64,000 nucleotides of DNA from Mixta tenebrionis (GTDB lineage: Bacteria; Pseudomonadota; Gammaproteobacteria; Enterobacterales; Enterobacteriaceae). The translations under genes and the position numbers were made by a program. The first letter of the stretch is position 1. Each line of letters begins with the position of its first letter. The DNA is taken from NCBI RefSeq assembly GCF_006517625.1, contig NZ_VHQI01000004.1, positions 266,771 to 330,770 on the forward strand. Reading direction: 5' to 3'. Shown in pieces: positions 4,731 through 33,622 of the stretch. Below the pieces are notes generated by a model. The model saw nothing but the letters and a program-made list of their open reading frames with translations. It did not search any database and was not told the origin of the DNA.

Positions 4731-5837
4731 TCAGAACTGGTAAACCAGACCCAGCGCCACAACGTCGTCGGTGTTGATGCCGGCGGCGTTGGTAAAGGCG
4801 TTGTCATCCAGCAGGTTGATCTGATAATCAACGTAGGTAGACATGTTTTTGTTGAAGTAGTAAGTCGCGCCTACGTCGACATATTTTTTCAGGTTCTGTT
4901 TGCCCCAGCCCTGGATATCAGTACCGCGCGAGCTGACATAGGCCAGAGAGGGACGCAGGCCGAAATCAAACTGATACTGCGCCACCAGCTCCCAGTTATC
5001 CGCCTTATCCGCAAAGCCGTAGGCCGCCGGATTATCGCTGCTGCCGAAGCGGGTTGCGTTATAGGAGCGAGTGTACATCGCCGCCAGGTAGATATTGTTG
5101 GCGTCATATTTCAGGCCGCCGGTGTAGGCTTCCGCTTTGTCGCCGTTGCCCAGAATCGCGCCGCTGTTCTGATAATTGGTGCGATCGGACTGGAACATCG
5201 CCGCGCCCAGGCCCAGGCCGTTGCCCAGATCGTAGGTGGTGCTCAGGCCCCAGCCGTCGCCGTTCTGCGCTACCGCTTTGCGGCTGCCCGCCAGCTCCGG
5301 ATTGCTGTCGTTTTTACCCTGATACTGCAGGGCGAAGTTCAGGCCATCCACCAGGCCGAAGAAGTTGCTGTTACGGTAGGTCGCCACGCCGTTTGCGCGC
5401 TGGAACAGGAAGTTATCCGCGCCGTAGGTATCACCGCCGAACTCCGGCAGCACGTCGGTCCATGCGCCAATATCATAAGCCACGCCGTAGTTACGACCAT
5501 AGTCAAAAGATCCGGCTTCGCCGAACTTCAGGCCGGCGAAACCTACGCGGGTAAAGTTGTCTTCGGTACCTTCCGCTTCAGAATGGTTCAGGGCGACCTG
5601 GTACTCCCACTGGCCGTAGCCGGTCAGCTGATCGGAAATCTGGGTTTCGCCTTTAAAGCCGAAACGCATATAGGAGTTATCGCCGTCGCTGCCATCGTTG
5701 TCAGAGAAATAGTGCAGGCCGTCTACCTTGCCGTAGAGGTCAAGTTTGTTGCCGTTTTTATTATAGATTTCTGCCGCACCCGCAGAGCCTGCGACTAACA
5801 GCGCAGGGATCATCAGGGAGAGAATATGACGTTTCAT
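4731..5837 (-). CDS. ompC: OmpC-type general porin
   Basis: This is a trimeric 16-strand outer membrane porin for small hydrophilic solutes. The start is the ATG at 5837 ([20 protein letters not shown]...), which gives a classic signal peptide cleaved before [11 protein letters not shown] longer upstream reading would put a charged stretch before the signal and is rejected. The mature part matches Omp[15 protein letters not shown], the [13 protein letters not shown] loop L3 constriction, [44 protein letters not shown], ending in GLVYQF with the C-terminal Phe needed by the BAM complex. The signal peptide and leader look more like OmpF of E. coli. The SD is GAGGG about 8 bases before ATG. It lies divergent from micF, the classical ompC-micF arrangement, where OmpR is expected to act. 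Confidence 0.95.
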
Positions 5838-5850
5838 TATTATTACCCTC
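5832..5850 (-). promoter_or_regulatory. Predicted MicF pairing site over the ompC ribosome binding site and start codon
   Basis: The antisense of the ompC leader reads TTTCATT then ATTATTACC. MicF (6169-6186) reads TTTCATT, TG, ATTATTACC. MicF can therefore form 7 + 9 perfect pairs with a two-base bulge, plus a G-U, an A-U and a G-C pair at the 5' side, covering the SD and AUG of ompC. Seen directly in the sequence; a regulatory effect is inferred. Confidence 0.6.
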
Positions 5851-6158
5851 TGGTTATGTGCCTTTATTTTGCCACTGCAAGCCGAACGTTTAATTTTCAG
5901 CCGGCACCTCATTGTTAGATTGACAGACGTAATAATCCATCACGAAAATGCTACTAAATTTCCAAAACTGTTTCTTTATATTATTTCCTGGCAGCAGATG
6001 TAAATAGCGGGGAACTTTCATACAGCACGTTGAGCTAAATTATTTAGCACTTATTGATAAGAAAATACCAGAATTACAGCTAAAGAAAAGCAAAGCTAAC
6101 GCGGTGTTAAGCACTGAATGATAAAAAAATTCTGCATTCCAGTTATAAAATAGATCCT
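5838..6158. other. ompC-micF intergenic region
   Basis: This 321-base AT-rich gap separates the divergent ompC and micF. It should hold the ompC promoter and OmpR sites. A -10-like TAAAAT at 6146-6151 fits a MicF start at 6159. No open frame of interest is seen, and individual OmpR boxes cannot be assigned with confidence by eye. Confidence 0.5.
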
Positions 6159-6291: not shown

Positions 6292-7461
6292 TTAACGTTC
6301 GCGCATGGCCTCTTTAACTTTATTTAATGGCTTAACCAGATAGTCCATTACTGATTTTTGACCGGTCTTAATTTCCACATTAGCAACCATACCGGGCACG
6401 ATAGGAAATTTACGTCCGGCGCGATTCACCAGCTCCGCTTTTTGCGTGCGCACATAGACGCGATAATAATATTGATCGCGCTTCACCTCATCCTGCAAGG
6501 TATCCGGCGATACCGTCTCTACCTCACCCGGCAGATCGCCATAAATTGACGAGTCATAGGCGGTCACCTTCACTACCGCTGGCAGGCCGGGACGAATATA
6601 AGCGATATCGCGCGGGTTAATGCGGGTCTCGATTAACAGCTGATCTTCCAGCGGCACGATCTCCATCAGCTTGCCGCCCGGCTGCAGCACGCCGCCGACC
6701 GTGGTGACCTGAATATCCTTAACGATGCCGCGCACCGGCGAATAGAGCGTGGCGCGCGTCAGCTGATCTTGTTTGCCGGTCAGCACCTGCAGCTGCGCAT
6801 CCAGCTCGGCGTTATTTTTTACCTGCTCTTCACGCGCGCGCACCGCATATTCGTTGCGCGCCTCATCGATTTTCCCGCGCAGCTCGCTAACCTGGCGACG
6901 CAGGCGGATCACCTCAACCTGCCCCGCCGCGCCTTTCGCCACCAGCGGCTCGGTCATGCGCAGCTCATCCTGCACCAGCCGGAGCGACTGCTGCAGGTTG
7001 CTGACCGTCTCCTGCAGGTTGCGCCGCCGCGATTCAAACAGCTGCGTTTCACGCGCTACCAGCTCCGGCTCCCGCAGCGTTTCCGCGCTGAACTGCAGCG
7101 GCGCGCCGGTCAGTTCAGCGCGCAGCCGCTCCGCCGAGGCGCGCAGAGTGCGCGCTTTGGCCTGCGCTTCGCCAAAGTTCGACTGAAAACGCGTCGGATC
7201 GAGACGCGCCAGAATCTGCCCCTTGTTAACAATATCGCCTTCATGCACGTTGAGCTGGTTGACGATGCCGCCGTCAAGGCTCTCAATCACCTGCGCGCGC
7301 GTGGAAGGGGTCACTTTGCCGGTGCCGACCGTCACCTCATCAAGAATGGCGAAGTGCGCCCACACCAGGAAAATCAGCAGCGCCGCGCTGCACAGCCAGA
7401 TAATCATTGAGGTGTTGCGCTCGCGTTTTTTCAGCTCGTTTTCTACCGTAACCTGGCTCAT
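6292..7461 (-). CDS. HlyD/LapC-type periplasmic adaptor of the type I secretion system
   Basis: The 389-residue membrane fusion protein has a short cytoplasmic N terminus, one membrane helix (about residues 18-40, MIIWLCSAALLIFLVWAHFA), a first lipoyl half (VHEGDIVNKGQILARLD), a long coiled-coil hairpin (about 95-240, rich in Glu, Arg, Gln and Leu), a second lipoyl half (LYSPVRGIVKDIQV) and a beta-barrel domain. It should bridge the inner-membrane ABC exporter and the outer-membrane TolC-like channel. Its start overlaps the ABC gene stop by 4 bases (ATGA), indicating translational coupling. It corresponds in position to bapD of Salmonella and to lapC of Pseudomonas. It is the last gene of the operon, and no terminator is visible before micF. 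Confidence 0.9.
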   Translation of the reverse strand: MSQVTVENELKKRERNTSMIIWLCSAALLIFLVWAHFAILDEVTVGTGKVTPSTRAQVIESLDGGIVNQLNVHEGDIVNKGQILARLDPTRFQSNFGEAQAKARTLRASAERLRAELTGAPLQFSAETLREPELVARETQLFESRRRNLQETVSNLQQSLRLVQDELRMTEPLVAKGAAGQVEVIRLRRQVSELRGKIDEARNEYAVRAREEQVKNNAELDAQLQVLTGKQDQLTRATLYSPVRGIVKDIQVTTVGGVLQPGGKLMEIVPLEDQLLIETRINPRDIAYIRPGLPAVVKVTAYDSSIYGDLPGEVETVSPDTLQDEVKRDQYYYRVYVRTQKAELVNRAGRKFPIVPGMVANVEIKTGQKSVMDYLVKPLNKVKEAMRER

Positions 7462-9608
7462 GCGGCATCTCCTTTCGCGGGTTTCACCGCCCCGGCGGCG
7501 CGCAGAATCTCATCGCGCGGCCCGTCCGCCACGATGCGTCCGTTATCCATCACCACGATCCTGTCCACCAGCTTCAGCAGCGCCGGACGATGGGTAACCA
7601 GCACCAGCGTGCGTCCGCTCAGCCAGCCGGACATCTGGCGAATCACATGCTCCTCCAACTGTTCATCCATCGAGGCGGTAGGCTCGTCCAGCAGCACCAC
7701 CTGCGGCTGGCGCAGGATCATACGGCTCAGCAGCACCATCTGACGCTGGCCGCCCGACAGCCCGCGCCCGCCTTCATTGACAATGCGATCGAGGCTGGCG
7801 GCATCCTGCTGCACCAGGCCCAGCGCCCCGCTAACGCGCAGCGCCTGCAGCATCTCCTGCTCGCTGGCGTGGGGATTGCCGAGCATCAGATTCTGCCGCA
7901 GCGTGCCGAAAAAGAGGCGCGAGTCCTGCGAGAGCCAGCCGAGCTGGCGCCGTAAATCGACCGGATCGATGCGGTTGATATCCACGCCGTCGACGATAAC
8001 CTTGCCCTGCGTCGCCTTCGCCTGGCCGGCCAGCAGCTTCAGCAGCGTCGATTTTCCGGCGCCTACCTTGCCAAGCAGCGCCACGCGCTCGCCCGGCTTG
8101 ATCTGCAGCTGACCGATGCTCAGGACGTTTTTCACATTCTCTTCATCGTAGGTGTACTGCACGTTGCGCAGATCGTAATGGCCGGTCAGCGTCGGGCAGT
8201 GCGCCATCTCGTCCGCTTCCGGCTGATCGAGCGGCTTCTTCAGCAGCTCGTCGAGGCCGTTCATGGCGCTTTTGGCGTGCTGCCAGCGCGAGAAAATCAT
8301 CGTCAGCTGCATCAGCGGCGCGATGGTGCGCGAAGAGAGCAGGCTGCTGGCGACCAGCGTACCGGTAGTGATATCTCCCGCCAGCACCAGATAGGTGCCG
8401 AACACCAGCATGCCGGCGTAGGTCAGCTGCTGCACCGACGAGGCCCAGCCGGTGAGCCGCGCGCCCCACAGCCGCTGCTTCATGCCGATCGCCGCGCTCA
8501 CTTCATGAGTCTGCTCCCACTGGCGCTGAAAATAGGGCTCCGCCTGCAGCGCCTTGATATCCTCCACCCCTTCAATGGTTTCCACCAGCACCGCATTGCG
8601 CAGCGCCCCTTCGCGCAGCCCCTCTTTCGCCAGCCGCGCCATCGGGATCTGCACCAGCAAACCGGGGATAACGATCAGCGGAATCGCCAGCAGCGGAATA
8701 ATCACCAGCGGTCCGCCGATAAAGCCCATAATAAACAGAAACAGAATGATAAACGGCAGATCCGCCGCCGCGCCGACGGTGGTGGAGGTCAGCAGTTCGC
8801 GCACCTGATCGATTTCACGCAGCTGAGAGATAAAGGAGCCGGTGGATTTGGGGCGCGCCTCGTTGCGAATATTCATCGCGCGCGCAAACAGCATCGAGGA
8901 GACTTTTAAATCGATGCGTTTGCCCATCAGATCGGAAACCTGAGTACGCATCAGGCGGATCAGGTATTCAATCGCGGCGGCGATCAGCACGCCGACGAAC
9001 AGCACCCACAGCGTTGACTCCGACTGTGCCGGGATCACGCGATCGTAAATCTGCATCGAAAACAGAATGCCCGCCAGCGCCAGCACGTTGCTGACTATCG
9101 AGGCGAGCGAAATCTCCGCGATACGCCGCCCCATGCCGCGGAAGTTTTTCCAGAACCAGTGCTGCTCCCAGGGCTGTACGAATTCATCGATGCGCGCATC
9201 GCGTCCGCGCGCCGTCACGCCGGGCACCGCCACCTGCGGCTGACTCTGCGCCAGCAGCTCCGTCAGATCGCTTTCGCGCACCACGTCGCCGCCTTCGCTC
9301 AGCCAGTAGCGCGCGCGTCCGTCGGCGTCGATGGCCTCCACCACCGCCACGCTGCCGTTCTCCAGCAGCAGGATCACCGGCGTCACTTCCTGACGCCAGC
9401 GCAGCTTGTCGCGCGGCGTCATAGTCAGGTGCAGACCCAGCAGGCCCGCCAGCCGCTCCAGCTGCTGCTCCGGCGTCAGGTTTTCGAACCAGCGCATCTG
9501 CTGGCGTAGCGTTTTGCCATCGGCGGGCTTGCCGAAGCGGGCGGCGACCCGCAGCATCGCCGCAATCCAGTTTTCGGTCGAGGTGGTCATAGTGGCTGCC
9601 TTATTCAT
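7458..9608 (-). CDS. Type I secretion ABC exporter (permease/ATPase), LapB/BapC-like
   Basis: This 716-residue protein has three parts. The N-terminal domain (about 1-140) is C39-peptidase-like but has no catalytic Cys, so it should be a substrate-docking domain rather than a protease. The six-helix membrane domain spans about 165-440. The C-terminal ATPase shows Walker A GKVGAGKST, the signature RGLSGGQRQ and Walker B VVLLDEPTA, with the switch His in LVTHRPALL. This matches exporters of giant adhesins (LapB, BapC, SiiF), which do not cleave leader peptides. It follows the TolC-like gene by 17 bases and overlaps the adaptor gene by 4 bases, so the three form one operon serving the two Ig-repeat proteins upstream. 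Confidence 0.93.
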   Translation of the reverse strand: MNKAATMTTSTENWIAAMLRVAARFGKPADGKTLRQQMRWFENLTPEQQLERLAGLLGLHLTMTPRDKLRWRQEVTPVILLLENGSVAVVEAIDADGRARYWLSEGGDVVRESDLTELLAQSQPQVAVPGVTARGRDARIDEFVQPWEQHWFWKNFRGMGRRIAEISLASIVSNVLALAGILFSMQIYDRVIPAQSESTLWVLFVGVLIAAAIEYLIRLMRTQVSDLMGKRIDLKVSSMLFARAMNIRNEARPKSTGSFISQLREIDQVRELLTSTTVGAAADLPFIILFLFIMGFIGGPLVIIPLLAIPLIVIPGLLVQIPMARLAKEGLREGALRNAVLVETIEGVEDIKALQAEPYFQRQWEQTHEVSAAIGMKQRLWGARLTGWASSVQQLTYAGMLVFGTYLVLAGDITTGTLVASSLLSSRTIAPLMQLTMIFSRWQHAKSAMNGLDELLKKPLDQPEADEMAHCPTLTGHYDLRNVQYTYDEENVKNVLSIGQLQIKPGERVALLGKVGAGKSTLLKLLAGQAKATQGKVIVDGVDINRIDPVDLRRQLGWLSQDSRLFFGTLRQNLMLGNPHASEQEMLQALRVSGALGLVQQDAASLDRIVNEGGRGLSGGQRQMVLLSRMILRQPQVVLLDEPTASMDEQLEEHVIRQMSGWLSGRTLVLVTHRPALLKLVDRIVVMDNGRIVADGPRDEILRAAGAVKPAKGDAA

Positions 9609-9625: not shown

Positions 9626-10981
9626 CTACTGCAGTGAAGGCAGCAGTTCGCCGCTGTTTTTCTCGCGATCGACGCCCATCATATCGAGCAGGTTGTCTAC
9701 CGCCGCCGCGTAGCGCACCGTGGCGCTCCAGCCGTCATACAGCGCTGAAATACGCATACTGTCGGCCTGAAAGACATCCTGCTCGACGCTGAGCAGATCG
9801 TTCAGGCTGCGCTTGCTGAGCCGGTATTCATCGGCGTAAACCGCACGGGTGTGCTCCGCGCTGGCCAGCTGCGCCTCGCCCGCCTGCTGACGCTGCTGCG
9901 CGCCGATCATATCGGCGTAAGCGGTGGAGGCGTGCTGGTTGATATCGAGCTTGGCGCGCTGGATTTCCGCCTGCGCCGCCTGGCGTTCCGCCTCCGCCGA
10001 GCGGGTTTTGGCGTTAACCAGCCCGCCCTGATAGAGCGGCGCCTCAACCCGCAGCTGTAGCTCATCATCCCAGTAGGAGCGGCTGTCATTTTCGTAGCGG
10101 GTGCGCCCCGCTTCGACCCTAATCGTCGGCCAGTGATTGGAAGCCGCCTGTCTGATACGCTCGCGCGCCGCCTCCTGCTTCGCCTGCGCGCTGCGTACCG
10201 CCGCGCTCTTTTCATAGGCGATGCGGTCCAGCGTCACCTGCTGCCTCAGCAGCGATTCCGGCAGTTCAGGCAGATTGTCGGAGACTACGCCGGTCAGTAC
10301 CGTAAGCTGCGCCTGAGCGGATCGCTGCTGCGCGCGGTACTGCTCCAGCGTGGCGCGCATTCCCGCCAGCCGGGTGCCCGCCTGCAATACATCGGACTGG
10401 GAATTCAGCCCGGCATCGGCGCGCAGCGTGGCGATATCGCGCACATGCTCCAGCGACGCGATATTCCTGCGTGCCGACGCCACCAGCGCCTGGTAGCGTT
10501 TTACTTCCAGATAGGCCTGCAGCGTATCGGCGGCGACGGTGGTCATGGTAGCGTACAGGGCGAAGCGATAAGCGTCGGAGAGCGCGTGCTGTTCATCGAT
10601 CGCGCCGCCGGTGCGGCCAAAATCATACAGCAGCTGGCTGAGGGTGATGCCGCCGGAGGCGGTATTATTCAGGCTGCCGGAGGAGTCAGTTTGATGGGAA
10701 CGGCCGCCGCTGCCCTGCAGTGAGATCTGCGGATACCAGGCGCTTTTCGCCGCATCCAGCTCCGCCGCGCCGACGTTAATCTGGGCGGCGGCCTGGGCAA
10801 TCTGCGGGTTACGGGCAAAGGCGCGCAGGATCGCCTCGCGCAGGCTCAGGGTGGCAATCTGCTCTTCAGTCGGCGCGGCGCGCCAGTTAAATTCGGCTTT
10901 CGGCTCTGAGGCGGCCCAGACGGGATGCCCGACGGCGCTCCATAGGGCGCTCAGGCAAAAAGAGACAAGAAGTTTACGCAT
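9626..10981 (-). CDS. TolC/LapE-type outer membrane channel of the type I secretion system
   Basis: The 451-residue protein starts with a signal peptide (MRKLLVSFCLSALWSAVGHPVWA, then ASEPKAEF). It has the two repeated halves of outer membrane efflux proteins: LREAILRAFARNPQIAQA near residue 48 with WYPQISLQGSG in the first, and VRSAQAKQEAARERIRQA with HWPTIRVEAG and coiled coils in the second. It is the dedicated exit duct for the type I system, matching bapB of Salmonella in gene order. It starts the three-gene export operon. Its SD is weak: AAGG lies about 13 bases upstream of the ATG. Confidence 0.9.
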   Translation of the reverse strand: MRKLLVSFCLSALWSAVGHPVWAASEPKAEFNWRAAPTEEQIATLSLREAILRAFARNPQIAQAAAQINVGAAELDAAKSAWYPQISLQGSGGRSHQTDSSGSLNNTASGGITLSQLLYDFGRTGGAIDEQHALSDAYRFALYATMTTVAADTLQAYLEVKRYQALVASARRNIASLEHVRDIATLRADAGLNSQSDVLQAGTRLAGMRATLEQYRAQQRSAQAQLTVLTGVVSDNLPELPESLLRQQVTLDRIAYEKSAAVRSAQAKQEAARERIRQAASNHWPTIRVEAGRTRYENDSRSYWDDELQLRVEAPLYQGGLVNAKTRSAEAERQAAQAEIQRAKLDINQHASTAYADMIGAQQRQQAGEAQLASAEHTRAVYADEYRLSKRSLNDLLSVEQDVFQADSMRISALYDGWSATVRYAAAVDNLLDMMGVDREKNSGELLPSLQ

Positions 10982-11192: not shown

Positions 11193-11214
11193 AAAAAGGC
11201 GGCAAAAAGCCGCC
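11193..11214 (-). terminator. Terminator after the short Ig-repeat gene
   Basis: The stem GGCGGC (11198-11203) pairs with GCCGCC (11209-11214) across a five-base loop. On the minus strand it is followed by TTTTTGG. It separates the short Ig-repeat gene from the secretion operon, which must then have its own promoter in 10982-11192. Confidence 0.8.
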
Positions 11215-11272: not shown

Positions 11273-13210
11273 TTAAGCCAGCTGTTGCGGATGCGGCTGC
11301 TGAAGCAGATCGGCCAGCGTCCGGGCGTCGGGCGCGTAATATGCCGCACCGTCATCCGCTGCCGCATATGCGTCTGCCGTCAGCGTCTGCCAGATATCAG
11401 CGGGCGCAGCGGGCAGGACGGCATCGGCTTCAGCCGCCGTCAGCGGCGCCCGACCGGCCGTCGCGGCGTCCTGATGCGGCTGCGCATCGTCGGCGGTCAG
11501 GCGCTCGATCAGCGCATGCAGTGAGGAAGGTTCGCCGGCGTGCAGGCCGGGCAGCGCGGCGTGGGTCGCTTCTGCCGCTACAGGCAAGGCGGCGCCCTGC
11601 CCGTGCATAGCGGCGGCATCATGCTGTGCAGCGCCGTCCGACAACGCGCCGACTTGCGCGCCGTCATGGCGTTCCGCTGGCAGGCTGCTCAGGGTGGCGA
11701 GGCCATCATTATCAACATGGATAATTTTCGCCTGCGTCTGCGTAACCTGTGAGCCGCTCCATTGCAGCCAGTCGCTGACGGAAGCCACAACGGTATAGCT
11801 GCCGGGCGTGAGCGACTCAATATCGCTGGCCGGAATATCCAGCTGCCAGTAATTATCGTAGGGGCTGTCCGCGCCGTTCTGCACCACGGTGGTATAAGTC
11901 TTGCCGTTTAAGGTTACATAAAGGGTTTGCTGGCTACCCAGCCCTTCGCCGGAGGTGAATTCGCCGCGGATGGTAAGATCCTGATGTCGCTCTGCGCCGC
12001 TGAGGCGATCGTCGCCGCCGATCGGGTTAATTGCAAAGATCATCGGATAGTGGAAAGGATAGCCGCCCGCCGCGGTTTCAATAACGCGCGTGGCAGCAAA
12101 CTGGTTGCCTTCCCGATCCTGATAGCTAATGGTGGCATGAGTAGTCGCGGCATTGTTGACGCTATAGAGATCGTCAACATAGACGCTCCAGACGCCGTCG
12201 CCGGTAACGGTGCCGGTAAAGATCTTATCACCGGTGGTCAGCTTCACCTTGCTGCCCGCCGCGATGTTTTCCGCATGGCCGGTGACATAGAAAGGCCCGG
12301 CGATTTCGCCGCCGTCAACCTTATTGTCGCCGGAAATAGGATCTATCGTCAGTACTGGTGTCTGTTTATCAGCTCCGCTATGGGTCAGCGTCAGCAGCCG
12401 CGCCGCCTCGGCGGTACGCCCCGCGCCGCCCAGCGAAGCCAGCAGCGTCAGCTGTCCTTCCGGCAGATCCTGCAAATCCTGCTGCGGTATGGCGATAATC
12501 CAGCGGCTGTCTTTGGTGGTTTTGGTGGTGTAGGTGTGGCCGTTCAGCGTGACTTTAATCTCATAGCCTGCGTCAATATAGCGCCCCCAGCCCGATATCA
12601 GCAGATCGCCGCCGCGCTCAACGGCGCTCAGCACATCGTCTCCGGTCACTTTATTAATAAACAGGCTGGGCGAATAGCGGGCATTGGCATCAGAAGCCAG
12701 CGTAAAGGCGCCCTGCTGTTGATGTTCACCCCCTGCGGTATCAGTATGCGCTACGTTAAATATGACTTTGCCGTCGGCGATGGCAGCCATATCGCCTTTA
12801 GATACGCTGACAAACCACATCGCGTTGTTATCCAGCGTGCCGGCGTAGGTTTTGCCGTTCAGCGTGACCAGCACCTTTTCACCCGGCGCGCCGCTTTGCG
12901 CATAACCGGAGATAATTGTCTGCTCGCCATGCTCGCTGACGCTGATTTTGTTATCGCCGGAGAGGGGGTTAATAAGAATATCGTTATCCAGCATGCTAAA
13001 GCTTTTCGCCTGGCTGCTGTTAACGCGCTCGCCATTGCTGATAGCGGCGTCCGGCGCAAGTGCGACGGTGTCGCTCGCCGGTACGTCGATTCGCAACGTC
13101 CGCGCGCCAGGGGAAGCGGCGGGAGCGGCGAGCGCCGTACCTGCCAGCAGGCTATTTTCGGAAAAGGGAAGCGCGGCGGCGAGCCGCTGCCGATCGGGGG
13201 TGTTGGCCAT
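11273..13210 (-). CDS. Short Ig-repeat protein, probable second type I secretion substrate
   Basis: This protein of about 645 residues is not a family I can name. Three ATGs in tandem (13216, 13213, 13210) follow an AGGAG at 13217-13221; the third has proper spacing (6 bases) and is preferred. There is no Sec signal and no BapA prefix domain. After about 80 residues come four Ig-like repeats (about 81-180, 183-285, 287-380 and 391-500), each opening with a variant of the giant adhesin motif: PLSGDNKISVSE, KVTGDDVLSAVE, PISGDNKVDGGE, PIGGDDRLSGAE. Next is an Ala/His-rich tail (510-630). The last residues, TLADLLQQPHPQQ, parallel the giant adhesin end TLGDVLVQHNLQ. It lies between the adhesin and its exporter and is flanked by terminators on both sides. 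A secreted accessory or mini-adhesin is inferred. Confidence 0.8.
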   Translation of the reverse strand: MANTPDRQRLAAALPFSENSLLAGTALAAPAASPGARTLRIDVPASDTVALAPDAAISNGERVNSSQAKSFSMLDNDILINPLSGDNKISVSEHGEQTIISGYAQSGAPGEKVLVTLNGKTYAGTLDNNAMWFVSVSKGDMAAIADGKVIFNVAHTDTAGGEHQQQGAFTLASDANARYSPSLFINKVTGDDVLSAVERGGDLLISGWGRYIDAGYEIKVTLNGHTYTTKTTKDSRWIIAIPQQDLQDLPEGQLTLLASLGGAGRTAEAARLLTLTHSGADKQTPVLTIDPISGDNKVDGGEIAGPFYVTGHAENIAAGSKVKLTTGDKIFTGTVTGDGVWSVYVDDLYSVNNAATTHATISYQDREGNQFAATRVIETAAGGYPFHYPMIFAINPIGGDDRLSGAERHQDLTIRGEFTSGEGLGSQQTLYVTLNGKTYTTVVQNGADSPYDNYWQLDIPASDIESLTPGSYTVVASVSDWLQWSGSQVTQTQAKIIHVDNDGLATLSSLPAERHDGAQVGALSDGAAQHDAAAMHGQGAALPVAAEATHAALPGLHAGEPSSLHALIERLTADDAQPHQDAATAGRAPLTAAEADAVLPAAPADIWQTLTADAYAAADDGAAYYAPDARTLADLLQQPHPQQLA

Positions 13211-13759
13211 CATCATCTCCTGTGGCGCCAGATAAAATTGTCGTAAGCCAGCGCATCCTGCGGCCTGAGCCGGGATCTATTGCGTAGCTTTATTTATCCT
13301 TTCACTGAAGGAAAGGGTGGATCGGCGCGCACCTGAGCTAATTCAGCCCGATAACAGGAAGTAAAACATCAATTAAAAACCGCATGTTAGCTTAATGCGC
13401 CAACAGGTATAAAGAAATCTCCGCAGGTGAACATCTTTATCCATTTATCATAACGATTAACATAATTAATCAGTGGCACCATAAAAGCGCATCCGCTGCC
13501 GGTTTCGTTGCGCAACTTTTACGGCTTAAACCGCTGACAGGGTTCCGGCTGCAAAAAAAGCGCGCTGAGCGGCTTAAGCGGGCTTGCCGTTTAAGTTCGT
13601 GCCGTCTCTATATGATGCGAAAAGCAGCAAATTAAGAATTAGCCTGGGCGCTGACAGGTGCCGCGTCACCATTACAGCGCGCCGCAAACGAAAAAACGGG
13701 GCGCATGGCCCCGTTCGCTTTGATGCGCGGGGCGCTGTCGCCCCGCTATGTTCAGCCCG
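13211..13759. other. Intergenic region between the two Ig-repeat genes
   Basis: This 549-base gap holds the adhesin terminator (13691-13715), a second GC hairpin GGGGCG/CGCCCC near 13730-13743 without a U tract, and an AT-rich stretch at 13360-13480 that probably carries the promoter of the short Ig-repeat gene. I see no gene in it. Confidence 0.5.
13691..13715 (-). terminator. Terminator of the giant adhesin gene
   Basis: AACGGGG (13695-13701) pairs with CCCCGTT (13709-13715). The minus-strand RNA continues into four more U. It lies 45 bases beyond the adhesin stop codon. Confidence 0.85.
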
Positions 13760-16700
13760 TTACACCACCTGTACCTGCAGGTTATGCTGCACCAGTACAT
13801 CGCCCAGCGTATCGTTCGCCGCCAGCGCCGAGTTGTGATAGATATCGTACAGCTGTCCATCTACCTCGCGCTGCCCAACGCTGCTCCAGACGCCGCCGGC
13901 ACTGTTCGCCAGCGTCACCAGGCTGCCGTCAGCCCCCTTGATCAGCAGATCGTCCTGCGGCGCATCGGTGATCTTCAGCGCCTCATCCAGATCCAGCTTC
14001 ACGCTGTTGGTGCCCGACTGACCCAGATTAAGCACTTCAATGTGCTCCACCTTCAGCCCCAGCGCGGTGAGATCCAGCTGCATATGCTCGCCGTTCAGCA
14101 GCAGCGTATCGGTGCCGGCGCCGCCGTCAATATGCGTGAAGCCCAGATCGTTGACGATTACCGTATCGTTACCGGCGCTGCCGGTCACCGCCTCGCCCTG
14201 CTGCTGCGTGCCGTCGGCCAGCACGATAGTCAGGCCGCCGATGGTAAAGGCGCCGATATCGTCCGCGGCGGTTTCCGCCGCCGCGCCGCTGGCCGTCGTC
14301 TCACTGCTGCCGGCAGCGTCAGCGGCGGTGGCTGCCGACGCCTGAATATCAGCCCCGGTAGTCAGCGTCGAGTCTGGCGCCGCTGTGCCGCCGGCAGGCT
14401 GCTGCGCCGCCGTTTGCTCAGCCGCGCCGCTGGCGACAGCGCTGTGATCCTGCGGCCGATCGCTGGCCAGCGCCTCATCCACCGAAACCGCCATCAGCGC
14501 CAGCGCTGCGGCCTCGCTGGAGGTAGCCACCGGCAGCAGCGATCCCAGCAGCAGCGTGGTGGAGGTGGTGGCGCGGTTGCCCGCCGCATCCGCCGCGGTG
14601 ACGGTAACGATGGAGTTAAGGTTTAACGCCGTCAGCAGCCCGCCGCTAAATTTCACGCTATAGCGCCCCAGCGCATCCACCGTCGCCTGCTGCGTGACGC
14701 CGTTCAGGGTAACGTTAACCACCGTACCCTGACGCAGGTTCAGCGTGCCGCCGCTGATGGTCAGGCCGGTCAACAATACGCTGACCAGACTGAGTACCGG
14801 ATCCACGCCGATAACCGGCAGGTTATGGGTAATGGCGTTGAAGCTGCCGCTGGCGGAAGCGCTGTTGCCCACCGCATCGCTGACCGACACGTTAATCGAA
14901 TGGCTGCCGTCAGAGATATTGCGCAGCGTCGCCGACGGCACGTTTACGCTCCAGCTGCCGTTGCTGCCTACCGTGGTGGTGTACTGCGTGCCGGCCACGT
15001 TAACCGTCACCGTTCGTCCTGCGGCATTGGTGGCGGTGCCGCTGATGGTTTCCGTGACGTTTGCTTCGGACAGGTTCAGATAACCATCGCCGCCGAAGAA
15101 GCTGTTCAGCGTTACCGTCGGCAGCGTATGGGTGCCTACCTGCACCGTACCGCTGGTGGAGCCGGCGACGCCCGCGCTGTTGGTTACGCTGACGCTGACC
15201 GTTTGCGAACCGTCGGCGATCGCCGCGAGGCCGGCCGGCGGCACCGCCACGCTCCAGGCGCCGTTAGCGCCTACGGTGCCGGTATAGTTATTTCCGCCCA
15301 GTCTGACCACCACCGTCGAACCTTCGGCGTTGGTCGAGGTGCCGTTGATGGTCTGCGTCGTCAGCGCATCCGTCGCGTTCAGCAGTCCGTCGCCGAATAC
15401 CGAGCTGATGGTCAGCGTCGGCGGCGTATGGGCGATCACGCTGACGTTGCCGTTGGCGGTCGCCACGTTGCCGTAGGCGTCGGTGGCGCGCACGCTTACC
15501 GTCTGCGTGCCGTCGCTGATGGCGGCCAGATCGGCGCGCGGTACGCTCAGGCTCCAGCTGCCGCTGCTGCCCACGGTAGTGGTATAGCTGCGTCCGTTAA
15601 GGGTTACCGTCACGCTGCTGCCGCTGCCGAGGTTGCTGCTGCCGCCGCTGATAATCTGGGCGCTATTGAGATCCGCCGCGCTCAGCACGCCGTCGCCGAA
15701 GATGGTGTTAACCGTCAGCGCCGGCGGATTAGCGATGCCGATCTGCAGGCCGGTGCTGACGCTGGAGACGTTGCCGACCGGATCGGTCACTGATACGCCC
15801 ACGGTCAGGTTGCCGTTCAGCAGCGTGCCGAGAATGTCCGGCGTTATCGCAGCGCTGAAGCGTCCGTCGCCGCCCACCGTAGCATTTACCACCACATTGC
15901 CGATATTCACCCGCACCTGGCTGCCCGCCGCCGCGTTGGCTACGGTGCCGGTTATCGTCTGGGTTACCAGCGATTCCACCAGGTTCAGCACGCCGTCGCC
16001 AAACAGCGGATCGAGCGTAATCACCGGCAGGTTATGAATGCCCACCAGCGCGGGCAGCGACGCCACGGTGCTGCTGTTGCCCGCCGCATCGGTTACCGTC
16101 ACGCTGGCCGTCAGGTTGCCGTCAGCCAGCCCCTGCAGCAGAGTCGGCGGCAGCGCGACGCTGAAGGCGCCGTTGGCGTCGGCGGTGGTGACCAGCGTTT
16201 GACCGCCGATGGCGACGCTGACGCGCGCCCCCGGCTCTACGTTGCCGATGGTGCCGCTGATAACCTGGGTCACCAGCGCATCCGCCGCATTCAGCAGGCC
16301 ATCGCCAAACAGCGGATTAAGGTTAATGGTCGGCAGCGTGACGTCGACCACCAGCCCGCCGCTGGCCGATGCGGTATTACCCGCCGCATCGGTAACGCTG
16401 GCGCCTACGGTGAGGTTGCCCTGGGTCAGGGTGCCAAGGATGTCTGGCGTGACGGTGGCGGTAAAGACGCCGTTAGCGCCAACGGTAGCGGTTACGTTGC
16501 TGTTGCCGATACTGATATTAACCGTCGATCCGGCGGCGACATTCTGCGCCACGCCGCTGATGGTCTGGTTAACCAGCAGCTCCGCCGCATTCAGGAAGCC
16601 GTTGCCGAAGATCGGGTTCAGGCTGATCGCCGGCGCGGTGCCGAAGACGCCGATATTTACCGACTGCGAGGCGGTATTGCCCGCCGGGTCGGTAACCTGC

Positions 16701-19700
16701 ACGCCCAGCGCCAGCGTGCCGTCCAGCAGGTTGCCGAGATCCGTCGCCGGGATAGTCACGCCCCATCTGCCGCCCGCGGTGACCTGCGTCTGATAGCTCT
16801 GGTTGCCTAAGGTAACGGTGACAATCGAGCCGGTAGCGGCATCGATCGCCCCGCCGATGGTTTGCGCCTGGCCCAGCTCGGCAATATTCAGCAGGTTATC
16901 CCCGCCGAACAGCCCGGTCAGGTTGCCGATTACCGGCAGGTTATCAACGATCGCGGTGACGGTTTCCGTTACCGAACGCTGGTTGCCTGCGGCATCGGTC
17001 AGCGTCAGGTTAAGGTCGATATCGCCATCCTGCAGCAGTCCCAGCACGCTGGGCGGTACCACAATCGCCCATTTGCCGTCCTGTCCTACCGCCGCCGTCA
17101 GCGTGGTGCCGCCCAGCGTCAGCGACACCGTGGCGCCGATGCCCGCCGACTCGGCGATACCGCTGATGGTCTGTCCGATTGCGGTATCGGCGGCGTTGAG
17201 GAAGCCGTCGCCGAACACCGAATCCACAATCAGGTTCAGCGCGCCGTTAACCACTTTATTCACGGTCAGCGTGGCGTCCGTGACGTTGCCCGCCTCGTCG
17301 CTAACGCGCACGCCCAGCACCAGCGGCCCTTCGGTCAGGCTGCCAAGCACTTCCGGCGTCAGATCGATGCTGAAGGTGCCATCCTGCGCCACCACCGCCG
17401 TGGCGATCGGGCTGCCGTCGCCGAGGTAGATGCCGATGGTCTGCCCTTCGGCGCCGCTGGCGCGTCCGGTCAGCACCTGGTTAAGCAGAATATCGGCGGC
17501 GTTCAGGATGTTATTGCCCAGCAGCGCATCTACCTGCAGCAGCGGCGCGCTGGTATCCACAATAACGTTGCTGTCGGCGCTGCCCACGTTGCCCGCCGCA
17601 TCGCTCAGCGTGGCGGTGATCGGCACATTGCCATCCTCCAGCGCCTGCAGATCGGCGGCGGGTACGGTGGCGCGCCAGCTGCCGTCCGCCTGCACGATAG
17701 CGCGATAGCTGTTATCGCCCAGCGTGATCGTAACGGTGCGTCCCGCTTCAGACGCTGAAGCGGTGCCGCTGATGGTCTGAGAACTGGACGCCTCCGAGCC
17801 GTTCAGATAGCCGTCGCCGCTAAAGGCGTTGATAGTCAGCGTCGGCGCGGTGCGATCCACCACCAGCGTCGAGCCAACCGAGGTAGCGCCTGCCGCGCCG
17901 CTGGCGCTGGCGCTGGCGGTGATGGTGTAGCTGCCGTCGGCGGGGAAAGTTCCGGCCTCAGGGGTAAATGTCCAGCTGCCGCTCTCTCCGGTTACCGGCA
18001 GGGCGGCGACCGGCGTACCGTTTACCAGCAGGGTGATCGTGCCGCCGCTGGCGTCAAAGTTGGCGAAGGTGCCGCTAAAGGTCGGCAGCCCCTCGCTGGC
18101 GTTAAGGATATTATCGCCGGCAACGGTTGCCAGCGTCAGCAGCGGGCCGGCCGGCGGCGTCAGGTTAACGCCGATGGTGGCGCTGGCGCTGGCGCTGTTG
18201 CCTGCCGGATCGGTGATGGTTACCGAGATATCAGCGCTGGGCGCCGACAGCCCGGCCAGCGTTTCCGGCGGCACGTTGACGCTCCAGCCGCCGCTGGCGT
18301 CGACAATGCCGTTAAAGGTCGCGCCGCCGAGGGTAACCGACACCAGCGAGCCAGGCTCGGCGCCGGCGGCGCTGCCGCTCAGCGTTTGCGCTACGATGCT
18401 TTCCGCATAGCTGAGCGCGTTGTCGCCGGCGAAATCGCCGATAGTGATAACCGGCACGCTGGTATTCACGGTAAATTCGCTGCTCACGCTACTGCTGTTG
18501 CCGTTGGCGTCGGTAGCGGTCACCGTAAAGCTGCCGTTGCCCTGCGCCAGCCCGTTCAGCGTCGCCGCCGGCAGATCCAGCGTCCAGCTGCCGTCAGCGT
18601 TGACGGTGGCCGGATAGTTCTGACCGCCCAGCGTGACGGTGATGCTGCTGGCGCCGCCCGCATTACCGCTTAGCGTCGCGCCGGCGGCGGCATCGGCGGC
18701 ATTCAGCAGACCATCGCCAAACGGCAGATTCACCGTCGGCGCCGGCGGCGTCTGCGCCGAGGTAAAGGTTTCGCTGCTTTGCACCACGTTGCCCGCGCTG
18801 TCAACGACGGTAATCACAATATTGTGCGTGCCGTCGCTCAGGCCGCTTAGCGCGCCCGCAGGCAGATTAACCGTCCAGTCGCCGTTGGCGTCGACCGTAC
18901 CGGAATAGAGCGTGCCGTTCACGTCAATGCGCAGCTGTACGCCCTGATTATCGCCGCTGGCGCCGGTATTGCCGCTTAGCGTCAGCGTGCCGGCAGCTTC
19001 GCTGATATTCAGTACGCCGTCGCCAAACGGCGTATCGATGGCCGGCTGCGGCAGAGTTACCGCCGTGATCACCTCCAGCGGCGCGGTAACGCTGGTATTG
19101 CCCACCGCATCGCTGGCGGTTACGGTAATGGTGTGGGTGCCGTTGCCAAGCGTCTCCAGCTGGGCAGGCGTCAGGTTCAGCGTCCAGTTGCCCTGCGCAT
19201 CCACCGTGGCGTTCAGCGGCTCATCGTTATTAAAGCCGCTGATGACCACGCTGACCCTTTGTCCCGCGCCGCTGACGCCGGTTTGTCCGCTCAGCGTTTG
19301 CGTCACGTCCGCTTCCGCCGCGCTCAGCGCGCCGTTGCCGAACGGCAGATTGATGGTCGCCTCCGGCAGATTGTTCACGATAACCTGTACCGGCACGCTT
19401 TCGCTGTCGCTGTTGCCTGCCGCATCGGTAACGGTAACCGTAACCGGCAGCGTGCCGTCCGGCAGCGTCTGTAGCTGTTCCGGCGTCAGGGTCAGCGTCC
19501 AGTTGCCCTGCGCATCTACCGTTGCCGGATAGCTGCCGCCGTTGATGGACACCACCACCGTCTGATCGCCGCTAACGCCGGTGGTGCCGTTCAGCGTGGC
19601 GCCGCTGGCCGCCTCGACGGCATTCAGACGGCCATCGTCAAACGGCGTTTCCAGCGTCACAGTCGGCAAGGTGGTAATGGAAGTGAAGTCAAGCGACGCG

Positions 19701-22700
19701 CTGTCGCTGTTGCCGGCGCGATCGACGACCGTCACCGTAATGCTGTGCGTGCCATCCGCCAGCGCCGCCAGCTGCTGCGGCGTCAGCGCCAGCGACCAGC
19801 TGCCGTTGGCGCTGACGTTGGCCGTTAACGGCTCTCCGTTATTCACCCCATCAATCACCACGCTGACCGTCTGCCCCACGCCGCTAATACCGGTCGTGCC
19901 GCTAATCACCTGACCCGCGCCCGCTTCGGCGGCGTTCAGCACGCCGTCGATAAACGGCGTATCCAGCGCGGCTTCCGGCTGCGTGGCGATCAGCAGATCG
20001 ACGCTGCCCTGCGCGCTGGCCGGGTTGCCTGCCGCATCGGCGGCGCTGACGACAATCGTCGCCGTGCCGTCCGCCAGCGCGTTCAGCGTCTCTGCCGGAA
20101 CAGCCAGCCGCCAGTTGCCGTCGGCGTCTACCGTCGTGGTAAAGTTCAGCGAGCCGATGGTCACCCTGACCTCCGTTCCCGCCGCCAGATTGGTGGCGCT
20201 GCCGCTCAGCGTCTGTTCTACCGCCGCGTCCGCCGCGCCGATCACGCCATCGCTAAAGGGCGTATCAAGCGTTAGCGCCGGCAGCGTGTTGATCGCTACC
20301 GTCAGATCGAGGGTATCGCTGTTAACGTTGCCGTTAGCGTCGGTGACCGATACGGTAACCGGCAGAGTACCGTCAGCAAGCTGCTGCAAATCACCGCCCG
20401 GAATAGCAACAGCAAAGTTCCCGGCGCCGTCCGCCGTTCCGGTGTAGGCGCGTCCGTTCAGCGTGACGGTAACCAGCTGGCCCGGCTCGCTCTCGCCGCG
20501 CACGGTAATCCCTGCCAGCGCCTCCGCCAGGTTCAGGATGTTGTCCGCGCCCGCGCCCAGCTCAATAGCGGCCAGCGCCGGCGGCGCGGTATCAACGGTA
20601 ACGGTTTCGCTATCCTGCGCCGGGTTGCCCGCCAGGTCGCTGCCGCTGACGGTCACGAGGTTATCGCCCTGCGGCAGCGCCTGCGCTGCGGCTGGCGGCA
20701 CGGTCACGCTCCAGTTGCCGTTAGCGTCAACGGTGGTGGCGTACTCCTGCCCGTTAAGGGTGACGGTGACGCTGCTGCCTTCCGGCAGGCGCTGGCTGCC
20801 GCCGGTAATAGTCAGCCCATCGCCCGCCTCCTGAGCGTTGACGATATCGTCGCCGGTGACCGGATTCAGGGTAATGGTCGGCTGGCTGGCCGCGCCGGCG
20901 ACCACCGTTACGCTGCCTGCGGCCGAGGCCGGATTGCCCGCCGCGTCGGCGGCGCTAACGACAATACTCTGCACCCCGTCGCCCAGCTCTCCAACCGCGC
21001 TCTGCGGCACCGTTACGCTCCAGTTGCCGGTCTCATCCACCTGCCCGCTATAGCTGGCGCCGTTCAGAGTGACGGTAACCGTATCGCCGGCGGCCAGGTT
21101 GCTGCTGCTGCCGGTGAGAATTAACGGCTGTCCCGCTTCCGCCTGGTTGATATAGCCGTCGCCAGAAATAGTATCCAGCGTCAGCTGTGGCAGATCCGTA
21201 GGGTTCGCCGCCACCGTCAGCGGGCGATCGATGGTGGTCGGGTTGCCAGCGGCATCCGTCAGCGTAACGCTGACGGTGGTTTCGCCATCGTTCAGCCCCT
21301 GCAGGACGCTGGCGGGTACGGTCACACGCCAGCTGCCGTCGTTCAGCACCACGGTTTGCAAGGTCTGGCCGCCAAGGCTGACCGTTACCCTTTGTCCGAC
21401 GTCAGCGCCGTCGGCGCTGCCGCTAATCACCAGATCCTGACGCGTTTCCGCCTGGTTAAGGATGTCGTCGCCCGCGATCGGATCCAGCGTCAGCGACGGC
21501 GCGCTGTAGTCAACGGTGACGGCGTTCTCTACCGTGCCGACGTTGCCGGCGGCATCGGTTACCGTTACCACTATCGGCAGTACGCCCGCAGCGAGATCCT
21601 GCAGCGTCTCCGCATCCAGCGTCAGCGTCCAGTTGCCGTTATTATCCACCTCGGCGGGATAGTCCACGCCATCCACGGAGACGATCACCGTCTGGCCGGC
21701 GCCGGTGACGCCGCTGACGCCGCTCAGGGTTTGCGCGCTTTCCGCCTCGCTAAGGTTAAGGTAGCCGTCGCCGAACGGCGTATTGATGGTCGGCGCCAGC
21801 AGCGCATTTTGCACGCTCAGCGTGCCGCTGCTGCTGGCCGGGTTGCCAGCCGCATCGCTGACGGTAACGCTAAACGGATAGTCGCCGCTGTTAATGCCGG
21901 CCAGCGCTCCGGCGGGCAGTTCCAGCGTCCAGTTGCCGCTGGCGTCCACCTGGGTGGTCCAGCTCTGACCGTTCAGGCTGACGGTGACCGTCTGCCCTTC
22001 GCCGGCGTCGGTGCTGCCGCTGATGGCGATCGGCGCGGCGGCTTCGGCGGCGTTAACGCGGTTGTCGCCCGCTATCGCATCGACGCTCAGGGTCGGCGGC
22101 GTGGTATCTACCGTCACGCTGCTCTCTACCGTGCTGGTGTTGCCGGCGGCGTCGCTGGCGGTTACCAGCAGCGCGTTCTCTCCGGCGGGCAGCGCCTGCA
22201 GCGCTTCCGTCGGCAGCGTTACGCGCCAGTTGCCGTTGGCGTCTACCGTACCGCTGTAATCGACGCCATTCAGGCTGACGGTCACGCTCTGACCCGCGCC
22301 GGTTACGCCGGTGTTGCCCAGCAGCTGCTGCGCGGCGCCGCTTTCCGCCGCGTTCAGGATGCCGTCGCTGAACGGCGTTTGCAGCGTCGCATCCGGCAGG
22401 TTATTGACGATGACGTTCAGATCGCTGCTGCTGCTGACCGGATTACCCGCAGCATCGGTAGCGCTGACCGTCAGGGTGGCGGTGCCGTCGGCCAGCCCGG
22501 CCAGCGCGGAGGCTGGAACGGTCACGCTCCAGCTGCCGTCTTCGCCTACGGTTGCGCTGTAAGTACGATCGTTAAGGGTCACGGTAACCTGCGTGCCCGC
22601 CGTCAGGTTGGCGCTGCTGCCGGTTACCAGCAGATCTTCCGCAGCTTCGCTGGCGTTGAGATAGCCGTCATCGCTTAGCGGATCGACAGAAAGCCCCGAC

Positions 22701-25700
22701 AGCGCGTTATTCACGGTGACGTCCAGCGTCTGCGTGACGCTGTTGCCCGCCGCATCGCTGACCGTCGCGCTGATGGTCGCGCCGCCGTTAGCCAGCGCGC
22801 CAAGCGCGCTGGCGGGCACGCTGACGCTCCAGGCGCCGCCTGACTGCACCACCGCTTCATAGGTTTGCCCGCCCAGCGTAATGGTGACAATCTGCCCCGC
22901 CTCAACGTTGGTCGCGCTGCCGGTCAGCAGCTGTGCAGTCTGCTGCTCGGCGCCGTCCAGCACGTTATTGCCGGCAAAATCGTTAATGGTGAGTTGCGGC
23001 AGGCTGGCGGCATCCGCCTTAACCGCCAGCGGCGTATCAACCGTGGTGGTATTGCCTGCCGCGTCGCTGGCGGTCACGCTCAGGGTGTAGCTGCCGTCAG
23101 CCAGCGCGCCAACATCGGCGGCCGGAACGACCAGCGTCCAGAGCCCATCGTTGCCGACGGTGGTGGCGTAGTCGTTGCCGTTCAGGGTAACGGTGATGGT
23201 GTTGCCCGCCTCGCCGCTGCCGTTCAGTTCCAGCGGCTGCGCGGCTTCTGCCGCGTTCAGTACGCCGCCGCTGACCGGCGTTGCCAGCGTTACCGGCGGC
23301 GCGCTGGTATCCACCGTCAGGGTGACGCTGCCGCTGGCGCTATTGCCGGCAACATCGCTAACCGTCACCGCCAGCGGAGTATCGCCGTCGTTCAGCGCGC
23401 CGAGCGCGGTAGCGGGCAGCGTCACGCTCCAGCTGCCGTCCGCCGCTACCGTGCCGGTATAGGTGTTGCCCTCCAGAGTGACCGTTACCGTCTGTCCCGC
23501 TCCGCTGATGCCGGTATTGCCGGTCAGAACCCCATCCTGCCCCTGCTCGGCGGCGTTGAGATAGCCGTCGTCAAATGGCGGATCGATGGTGACCGTCGGC
23601 TGCGCGTTAACCGCCACGTTTAGCGTGGCGTCGCTGCTTACTGAAGATCCCGTTGCGTCGTTAGTGCTGGCGACGATAATTAGCGGGCCATCCTGCAGGC
23701 CGGTCAGGTTAGCCGCCGGAATAGTGACGCTCCAGCTGCCGTTTGCCGTTACCGTGGCGGTGTAGTTTTGTCCGTCAAAGGTGACCACCACGGTGCGGCC
23801 TTCCGGCACGTTGACGCTGGTGCCGTTGATCACCAGATCCTGCGCCGCCTCCGCCGCATTCAGATAACCATCGCCCGCTACCGGCGCCAGCGCAATTCCG
23901 CTCAGCGCGGTATTCACGGTGAAATCAGCGCTGGCGCTGGCGCTGTTGCCCGCCGCATCGTTAACGGTAACGGTAAGCGTCTGGCTGCCGTCGTTAAGCG
24001 CATTCAGCGCCTCCGCCGGCAGCGTCACGCTCCAGTTGCCGTCGGCGTCCACCAGTCCGGTATAGCTGGCGCCGTTCAGGGTAACCGTGACCCTCTGTCC
24101 CGCCTCAACGTTGCTGGTGCTGCCGGTCAGCAGCTGCGCCACCTGCTGCTCGGCGCTGTCCAGCACGCCGTTGCCGGCGAAGATATCTACCGCCACGCTA
24201 ATTGTCGGCTGGTTAGCCGCTGCGGCGTCAACCGTCAGGGTGGTTTCTCCGGTCGTCACGTTGCCGACCGCATCGCGTTCGCTAACGGTAATGGTATTTG
24301 GTCCTTCATTCAGCGTCGCCAGGGTGGCCGGCGGCACCTCCACCCGCCACTGACCGTTGACGCCGACGGTACCCGTAAAGGTTTCGCCGTTCAGGGTGAT
24401 AGTAATGACGCCGCCCGCCTCGCCGCTGCCGGTCAGCGTCAGGGTTTGCTGCTGTTCGGCGGCGTTGAGCAGGCCATCTTCCGAAGGCGCATCGATGGTC
24501 AGCGCCGGCGGCGTGGTATCAACCTGCAGCGATACCCGATCGCTGCTGCGGTTGCCGCTGGCATCGGTGACCAACACATTAACCGGATAGCTGTTGCCAT
24601 CGCTCAATGCGCCCAGATCGCCGGCGGGCACGCTGATCGCCCACTGGCCATCGCTGCCGACGCTGGTGGCGTAGTTGACGCCGTTCAGCGTGACGATCAC
24701 GCTATCGCCCGCGCTGCCGCTGCCGCTGATGGTGAGCGGCTCGCCCTGTTCGGCGGCGTTGAGAATGCCATCGCCAGCCGGAGGATTAATGGTAAAGAGC
24801 GGCGCGCTGGTATCGATAGCAACCGGCGTCAGCGTCGTGGCGCTGGCGCCGTCGGGACGGGTGGCGGTAACGGTCAGATCGTAACGGCCATCTTCCAGCG
24901 CCTGGAGCGCGCCGGCAGGCAGGCTAACGCTCCAGCTGCCGTCCGCCGCTACCGTCGCCGGATAATCCACGCCGTCAAAATTAACCGTCACGCTGCTGCC
25001 CGCATCGACAGTACCGCTGACCACCAGCGGATTCGCCTGCTCTGCGGCGTTGATTACGCCGTCGCCGGAGGGGGGATTCACCGTCAGCGTCGGCGCGCTG
25101 ACGTCAACCGTTACCGGCGTCGTGGCGCTGTTAGTGTTGCCCGCTACGTCGGTTACGGTGACCGTAATCGGGTTGTCGCCCGGCGGCAGATCCTGAATAT
25201 CGCCGACCGGTACGGTTACCGTCCAGTTGCCGTCGTTATCTACCGTTGCCGGATAATCATTGCCGTTCAGCGAAACCACCACCTCCTGACCGCCGCCGCT
25301 GACGCCGGTGCTGCCGGTCAGGGTCTGCTCCCCGGTCAGTTCGCTGCCGGAGAGCACGCCGTCGCCAAATGGCGTATCCAGTACCGGAGCCGGCAGCGGC
25401 GTTATCGCCACGTTCAGCGTGGCGTCATCGCTCAGGGTATTGCCGTTGCCGTCCGGCACGCTGGCGGTGACCGTCAGCGGCCCGTCGTTTAGCGCTGCCA
25501 GATCGGCGACCGGTATGGTGACGCTCCAGCTGCCGTCCGCCGCTACCGTGCCGGTGTAGCTGTTGCCGTTAACGCTCACTGTTACCGTGCTGCCCGCCGC
25601 GACCTGGGTGGCGCTGCCGCTGACGGTAAGCGGCTGCTGCGCCTCCTGCGCGTTAAGATAGCCATCCACCGCAATGGGCGCGATAGCAATCGCTCCGCCG

Positions 25701-30231: not shown

Positions 30232-30254
30232 ATGGTCAGGTACTTCCTTTCATT

Positions 30255-32918: not shown

Positions 32919-32919
32919 G

Positions 32920-33573: not shown

Positions 33574-33602
33574 ACCCGCCGGCCCGCCAGGGCGGCGTTC
33601 CG

Positions 33603-33622
33603 ACGCGTCAGGGATGACGCGT
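33603..33622. terminator. Palindrome between the convergent rcsB and rcsC genes
   Basis: ACGCGTCA (33603-33610) pairs perfectly with TGACGCGT (33615-33622) across a four-base loop. There is no clear U run on either side, so intrinsic termination is uncertain, but the place between convergent genes is suitable. Confidence 0.4.

Follow-up and report, generated by a model that had tools for sequence, protein, structure and literature searches.

Does the exporter at a BapA-type locus serve the giant adhesin alone, or does it also carry a second, short protein? The question is raised by a 64,000-nucleotide stretch of Mixta tenebrionis DNA (contig NZ_VHQI01000004.1, positions 266,771 to 330,770; hereafter the window), in which a gene for a protein with immunoglobulin (Ig)-like repeats (IGP; 11273..13210, minus strand) lies between a giant adhesin gene and a type I exporter made of a TolC-family channel, an ATP-binding cassette (ABC) exporter and a HlyD-type adaptor. 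The usual description of BapA-type systems pairs a single exporter with a single giant adhesin. We think it fairly probable that the neighbouring TolC-ABC-HlyD exporter secretes IGP, recognising it by its C-terminal tail, and that IGP belongs to a set of short proteins without the BapA prefix domain; this is the best explanation overall of the sequence comparisons that follow.

Because IGP and the exporter persist where the adhesin is absent, the exporter appears to serve IGP and not the giant alone, and this persistence is the strongest evidence that we have. An IGP orthologue stands directly upstream of tolC-abc-hlyD in all eight Mixta genomes, each time with an open frame (50-71% identical), and the exporter genes are likewise open in all eight. 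The adhesin gene is missing from the locus in three of these genomes (G001, G004 and G005), which keep IGP and the exporter. There, IGP adjoins a major facilitator superfamily (MFS) gene, 84.6-87.5% identical to the one located beyond the adhesin in the window, and both flanks can be aligned, and no adhesin remnant was found between them. BapA_N (PF22783), the prefix domain, was found in five of the eight genomes and gave no match anywhere in G001, G004 or G005. On an exporter tree of 17 loci, some forks of which are poorly supported, adhesin presence needs three changes, and the branches starred on that tree force at least two by themselves.

The original prediction, which gave no strand, described a separate gene between giant adhesin and exporter, with four Ig-like repeats and with neither a Sec signal nor a BapA prefix, and it holds in each of these respects. 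Four Ca_tandemer stretches were recognised by hmmscan (NF033510, E 1.3e-60), forming a block of calcium-binding Ig-like repeats at 11714..12982 on the minus strand. In an AlphaFold2 model, numbered on a 647-residue frame and built from an alignment of 8 rows, the repeat strands lie at approximately residues 80-501, with low confidence on both sides. MpAFP RII (4p99) matches IGP with an E of 8.6e-34 by profile and is also the top Foldseek match; fold matches beyond the Ca-Ig repeats, such as complement C3, were set aside since the whole-protein model is moderate, with a mean predicted local distance difference test score (pLDDT) of 57. No match to the BapA prefix (PF22783 / NF033677) was obtained for IGP in a profile search at E up to 1; the adhesin has BapA_N at E 1.8e-18 together with 43 Ca_tandemer stretches. 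A crude hydropathy check, made without a signal-peptide predictor, shows no obvious Sec signal in IGP: the best 10-residue hydropathy mean in the first 40 residues is 1.67, compared with 2.49 for TolC and 2.55 for the porin, and the maximum over all 18 proteins of IGP and its relatives F2 and F3, described below, is 2.19, in an F2 protein.

Conservation within the IGP family is concentrated at the two ends and in the repeats. The first 21 residues (13148..13210, minus strand; MANTxxRQRLAAALPFSxxxL, with no obvious signal peptide) have a mean pairwise identity of 74%, against 34% in the linker that follows. At the other end lies a tail (11276..11704, minus strand) that is predicted to be disordered (pLDDT <50 from residue 505), has short helices at residues 566-574, 594-597 and 634-638, and is related to the F2 and F3 tails by hhalign. 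Its last 16 residues (11276..11323, minus strand) are proposed as the core of a type I export signal, on the strength of the matrix test given below and of a mean pairwise identity of 68% over the last 16 columns, compared with 66% in the repeats, 48% in the Trp box and 30-40% in the flanking linkers.

Further short Ig-repeat proteins came to light among the repeat matches elsewhere in the Mixta genomes, where they form two families, F2 and F3, whose genes are both away from the exporter. F2 (approximately 827 residues) occurs in three of the eight genomes, at L172:3292-5781 in G005, L173:3797-6277 in G007 and L174:3413-5896 in G002, the last on the minus strand; two of the three proteins end in a -LAEVLVQHNLDTRIV-like sequence, and the G002 copy diverges in its last residues. 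F3 comprises seven proteins of 852-1575 residues from five of the eight genomes (G001, G006 and G007 with one each, G002 and G005 with two each), on stretches L170, L171, L175, L176 and L178; these are unlinked Ig-repeat proteins with a related tail pattern, and the two genes neighbour each other in G002 and likewise in G005. A Mixta genome holds up to four short prefix-less proteins, some of them unlinked to the exporter. The tail pattern common to IGP, F2 and F3 consists of an (A/D)LG(L/M/I)...ALL-like box, a Trp and a terminal L-x-E/D-x-L-x-Q-like box. The Trp lies 31-42 residues from the end in eight of nine tails checked (39 in the IGP of the window) and is lacking in the L101 protein, from another genus.

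Profile comparisons relate these tails to one another and to the adhesin ends. Pairwise hhalign scores were 24.3 for IGP with F2, 28.3 for IGP with F3 and 39.9 for F2 with F3; when columns were shuffled 60 times for the comparison with IGP, the maximum was 14.7 for F2 and 18.0 for F3, and the F2-F3 score comes without such a control. In comparison with 56 adhesin C-terminal stretches, F2 scored 29.5, F3 23.4 and the combined tails 29.3, where the best of 50 shuffles gave 16.6, 15.3 and 16.1, respectively. A 14-position matrix was also built from 52 adhesin-type open reading frames (ORFs) of other genera (21 distinct 14-mers), those remaining of 59 adhesin-like ORFs once seven whose ends are broken had been left out, and was compared with the last 26 residues of 1908 mechanical six-frame ORFs of at least 100 residues. 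None of the 1908 background ORFs matched the scores of the five Mixta adhesins; for the adhesin of the window, the C-terminal signal region lies at 13763-13906 (minus strand, within the adhesin gene). Three of the eight IGP orthologues were likewise matched by none, and the other five by 1, 3, 4, 12 and 14; three short proteins of other genera were matched by 0, 0 and 1.

The tail also makes a search probe. Nine short-protein tails (two IGP, two F2, three F3, one from G244 and one from G043; adhesins excluded) were combined into a profile and searched in all six frames, the limit on E being 0.1 for the eight Mixta genomes and 0.01 for 295 genomes of the family. In Mixta, the 23 places found were eight IGP, three F2, seven F3 and five adhesin C termini, with no place of any other kind. 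In the 295 genomes, at least 21 places were found in 17 genomes: seven in short proteins, the one of G043 being split between two pieces, and 14 in C termini of adhesin type. Every one of the 17 belongs to the 78 of the 295 that have a match to the TolC of the window. By coordinates, 13 of the 14 adhesin-type places are the adhesin beside tolC. The remaining one lies in G126, at the C-terminal end of an ORF of 2149 residues approximately 21 kb from tolC. This ORF has 19 Ca_tandemer stretches without a match to the prefix, and its tandem partner is an adhesin bearing BapA_N (E 3.9e-18). The Bap-type tandem array there (L217) also holds a further ORF end of the same adhesin-type C terminus.

Outside Mixta, the arrangement is patchy, yet it recurs; the survey of related genomes for linkage to bapA loci that the original prediction had proposed gives eight of eight in the genus and a scattered distribution beyond it. 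Sixty stretches around TolC matches were fetched, covering approximately 15 kb upstream of tolC, a reach too small for longer tandem arrays; 52 have a Bap-type layout and 51 of these are informative, L118 beginning at a contig end. Eight loci (L152-L159) were excluded from the Bap counts, since they hold another exporter type, with TolC 45-53% identical and the adhesin on the opposite side. A separate short prefix-less Ig ORF between a complete adhesin end and tolC was found at three of the 51 loci, in three genera (L101, 506 residues; L102, 806; L104, 822). By eye, the L104 and L101 tails are IGP-like, and the L102 protein has an adhesin-like C-terminal domain. In a fourth genus, a prefix-less gene sits in the exporter locus as part of the tandem array of G126. 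Other genomes of the same genus without the short gene were seen twice (L103 beside L104, and L105 beside L102). Ig-bearing ORFs before tolC in L105, L107, L124, L132, L134 and L135 were considered as second substrates and rejected, being pieces of interrupted adhesin frames. At another locus, L123 (G262), two tandem adhesins with almost identical C termini precede tolC; the nearer carries BapA_N (E 9e-17), and the farther is cut by the end of the stretch.

The protein of the window had been called short, which is true of this copy (645 residues) and is a peculiarity of the strain, relatives having about twice as many repeats. The seven other orthologues are 1065-1163 residues long as listed, or about 1050-1145 from the conserved start; the G003 protein has eight repeats by profile, along the length of which the other orthologues align, and the window copy has four. 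In the window, the stretch after the N-terminal linker corresponds in the alignment to the last part of the relatives' fourth repeat, and at 12983..13096 (minus strand) the end of a lost repeat is apparently fused to that linker, as judged by protein alignment and by blastn to G003. Because this junction matches the end of the fourth repeat and the DNA then follows the second G003 block as well as it does the first (77% and 78% identical, respectively), the shortness of the window copy is most likely a lineage-specific contraction of approximately 1.3 kb relative to G003, its nearest relative. Between the two blocks, identity is 87% over 1.4 kb in G003 and approximately 70% in two other relatives examined. 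An assembly artefact is a possible alternative source of the shortness, the assembly being in 73 contigs, and a simple collapse is disfavoured because the junction sequence diverges.

On the minus strand of the window, the adhesin gene (13760..28198; 4812 residues, the presumed first substrate, with BapA_N and Ca_tandemer matches) lies upstream of IGP, and the genes for the TolC-family outer membrane channel (9626..10981, TIGR01844), the LssB-type ABC exporter (7458..9608, TIGR03375) and the HlyD-type adaptor (6292..7461, TIGR01843) lie downstream. The IGP frame runs from 13210 to 11273, stop codon included. Of three consecutive ATG codons at its beginning, the third, at 13210, was taken as the start because the ribosome-binding site ACAGGAG in front of it and the Met itself are both conserved in the alignment of 8 relatives; the mechanical ORF list begins two codons earlier, at 13216. 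Upstream of the gene, 13217-13630 shows partial conservation across the 8 relatives; it contains AT-rich blocks and a stretch that resembles GGTGCGCGCC. Terminator-like hairpins, both consensus matches on the minus strand, stand 3' of the adhesin gene (13694..13716) and between IGP and tolC (11198..11214), five such matches being found in the whole stretch where 3.2 are expected. Given a hairpin behind the adhesin gene and another behind IGP, the latter may form a transcription unit by itself. A search of 5900-30000 with Rfam at gathering scores gave no known RNA family for the locus or its surroundings. The adhesin frame is interrupted in G002 (L040) and G006 (L047/L048), where the IGP and exporter frames are open and an assembly error is possible. 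The locus is flanked in the window by a porin gene (4731-5912) and by MFS, rcsD-like, response-regulator and rcsC-like genes, in that order (29077-36496), a neighbourhood that we take to be that of E. coli ompC-rcs.

Several results weigh against IGP as a tail-recognised substrate. The matrix score of the window copy is equalled or exceeded by 14 of the 1908 background ends and reached by 78 of 20000 shuffles, so that the 16-residue C-terminal match to the adhesin, taken from the window alone, was dropped as proof; the likeness that the original prediction saw there is right in kind and thin on that one stretch. Profile comparison of the C termini, also proposed there, succeeded for F2, F3 and the combined tails, and the stronger matches to adhesin ends come from these; that of the IGP tails by themselves is marginal, because their score of 17.7 barely tops the shuffle maximum of 16.7. 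RTX (repeats-in-toxin) adhesins are defined by glycine-rich GGxGxD-type repeats close to the C terminus. A single motif of this type stands close to the C terminus of the adhesin (GGAGTD, residue 4692), and none was found in IGP or in the F2 and F3 proteins checked. Profile searches of the window's own genome detected neither F2 nor F3. The tail profile contained some of the proteins that it later found, with 16 of 23 places in Mixta and 16 of 21 in the larger run lying outside it, and that run scored at most 15 candidates per genome in a family taken in the GTDB sense. Because 61 of the 78 TolC-bearing genomes yielded no tail match, the probe is specific but insensitive. A second HlyD-type adaptor above the TIGR01843 cut-off is present in G000, G001, G002 and G003, the window's genome being one of these four. 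Taken together, a C-terminal signature common to the IGP set and the presumed main substrate appears weak for the window copy and the IGP tails alone and stronger for the set as a whole. The original idea of a second exporter substrate is well supported by comparison, through the linkage, the retention in three genomes without the adhesin, the conserved tail and the profiles that reach the adhesin ends.

The second adaptor also bears on the idea that IGP, F2 and F3 leave by another type I system or another route altogether, the survey having covered type I adaptors. The bap-locus adaptor is above the cut-off in all eight Mixta genomes and is the only one to be so in G004-G007, which keep IGP and of which G005-G007 also have F2 and/or F3; G005, which has no adhesin, combines IGP, one F2 and two F3 with that single adaptor. 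We therefore regard a different exporter as improbable. Still less credible, to the point of near dismissal, is that IGP is a functionless fragment of the adhesin, broken off or decaying. Its repeats are of the same family as the adhesin's and the window copy appears contracted, but the frame is open at 50-71% identity in every genome, those without the adhesin included, and the partly conserved upstream region, the conserved ribosome-binding site and the conservation of both protein ends also speak against it.

Linkage, persistence, the C-terminal signature, the missing prefix and the lack of an obvious signal peptide are read from the sequence, and from them we infer secretion, release and function. 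In type I secretion, an uncleaved C-terminal signal is read by the ABC exporter, the C terminus leads and folding takes place outside the cell with calcium. As a substrate of the neighbouring exporter, IGP would be made without a Sec signal and recognised by the ABC exporter through its tail, which is like the adhesin end over its last ~16 residues and more loosely over its last ~50. By family analogy, it would pass the channel C terminus first, its Ig repeats would fold outside with calcium, and it may then stand, less certainly, as a short calcium-stiffened rod in the matrix or on the surface. Without the BapA prefix, IGP most likely leaves the cell. The 21 conserved N-terminal residues leave room for a weaker retention or another role, both of which are possible. 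It is thus conceivable, though we think it unlikely, that this exporter secretes IGP and that the N-terminal segment then holds it at the surface as a short adhesin of low reach. That segment would exit the channel last, a helix is predicted with low confidence at residues 7-15, and BapA itself is loosely surface-associated according to PMC3796261. Against such retention, IGP has no BapA_N match, its N-terminal pLDDT of 28-43 predicts no folded plug, and the motif was not seen by eye in F3 or in the short proteins of other genera. For a LapA-type retention module with a LapG cleavage site, the observations are no N-terminal family match and no predicted folded module, LapG/LapD genes and cleavage sites not having been searched. 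For released IGP, a role in the matrix may be proposed because of the analogy with the Rhizobium Rap proteins, and no evidence speaks for a decoy role.

More broadly, we lean slightly towards the view that the BapA-type exporters of this section of the Enterobacterales are multi-substrate, that short prefix-less Ca-Ig proteins with a common tag, some of them encoded at a distance from the exporter, form a released, calcium-stiffened layer besides the anchored giant or in its place, and that the exporter is kept after the giant has been lost. Species with the exporter and IGP and without the giant separate the two naturally, and so offer a direct test of which part of a BapA-type C terminus acts as the address and what the prefix contributes; the tail common to the set, in turn, gives a sequence route to unlinked exporter substrates. 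Within the open-licence PMC literature, leaving subscription journals uncovered, no BapA-type exporter with short prefix-less companions was found among the matches listed, nor any paper on the second-substrate idea or on Mixta type I secretion; among the matches listed for Mixta species with type I secretion, adhesin or Ig-like terms, none names a searched Mixta species.

Known systems resemble this locus in parts. Extender repeats of the Ca-stabilised Ig-like kind are seen in MpAFP RII (4p99) and SiiE (2yn3), where they are parts of giant adhesins. For Vibrio cholerae FrhA and CraA, the use of one type I exporter was considered and its sharing left open in the passages available from PMC6890996; unlike IGP, both are described there as large, with LapG-cut N-terminal retention domains. 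In the Rap/PrsDE system of Rhizobium leguminosarum, one exporter has several substrates: 12 are given for PrsDE in the abstract-level text of PMC2275737, whose authors contrast this with substrate genes adjacent to their exporter. RapA2 is a lectin of beta-sheet structure that depends on Ca and acts in the matrix (PMC5061743). The system differs in its Ra/CHDL domains and its exporter, and the abstracts mention no giant adhesin with a common C-terminal signal. BapA/BapBCD is a type I secreted giant adhesin with its exporter. The Pseudomonas aeruginosa bap locus is listed in the relevant portion of PMC3510237 as four genes, bapA-bapD, one for the substrate and three for the exporter, in agreement with the earlier statement that the known bapABCD layout has no such short gene; the name bapABCD is also in use for Salmonella, as an extract of PMC9927257 indicates. 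Exporter genes stand beside the adhesin gene in both cases, and the Mixta adhesin has the BapA prefix and an ABC exporter of LssB type; the Mixta locus differs in having a second, prefix-less gene between adhesin and exporter that is able to persist alone. Multi-substrate type I exporters are thus already known, and these comparisons suggest that the new element is a BapA-type exporter with short prefix-less companions.
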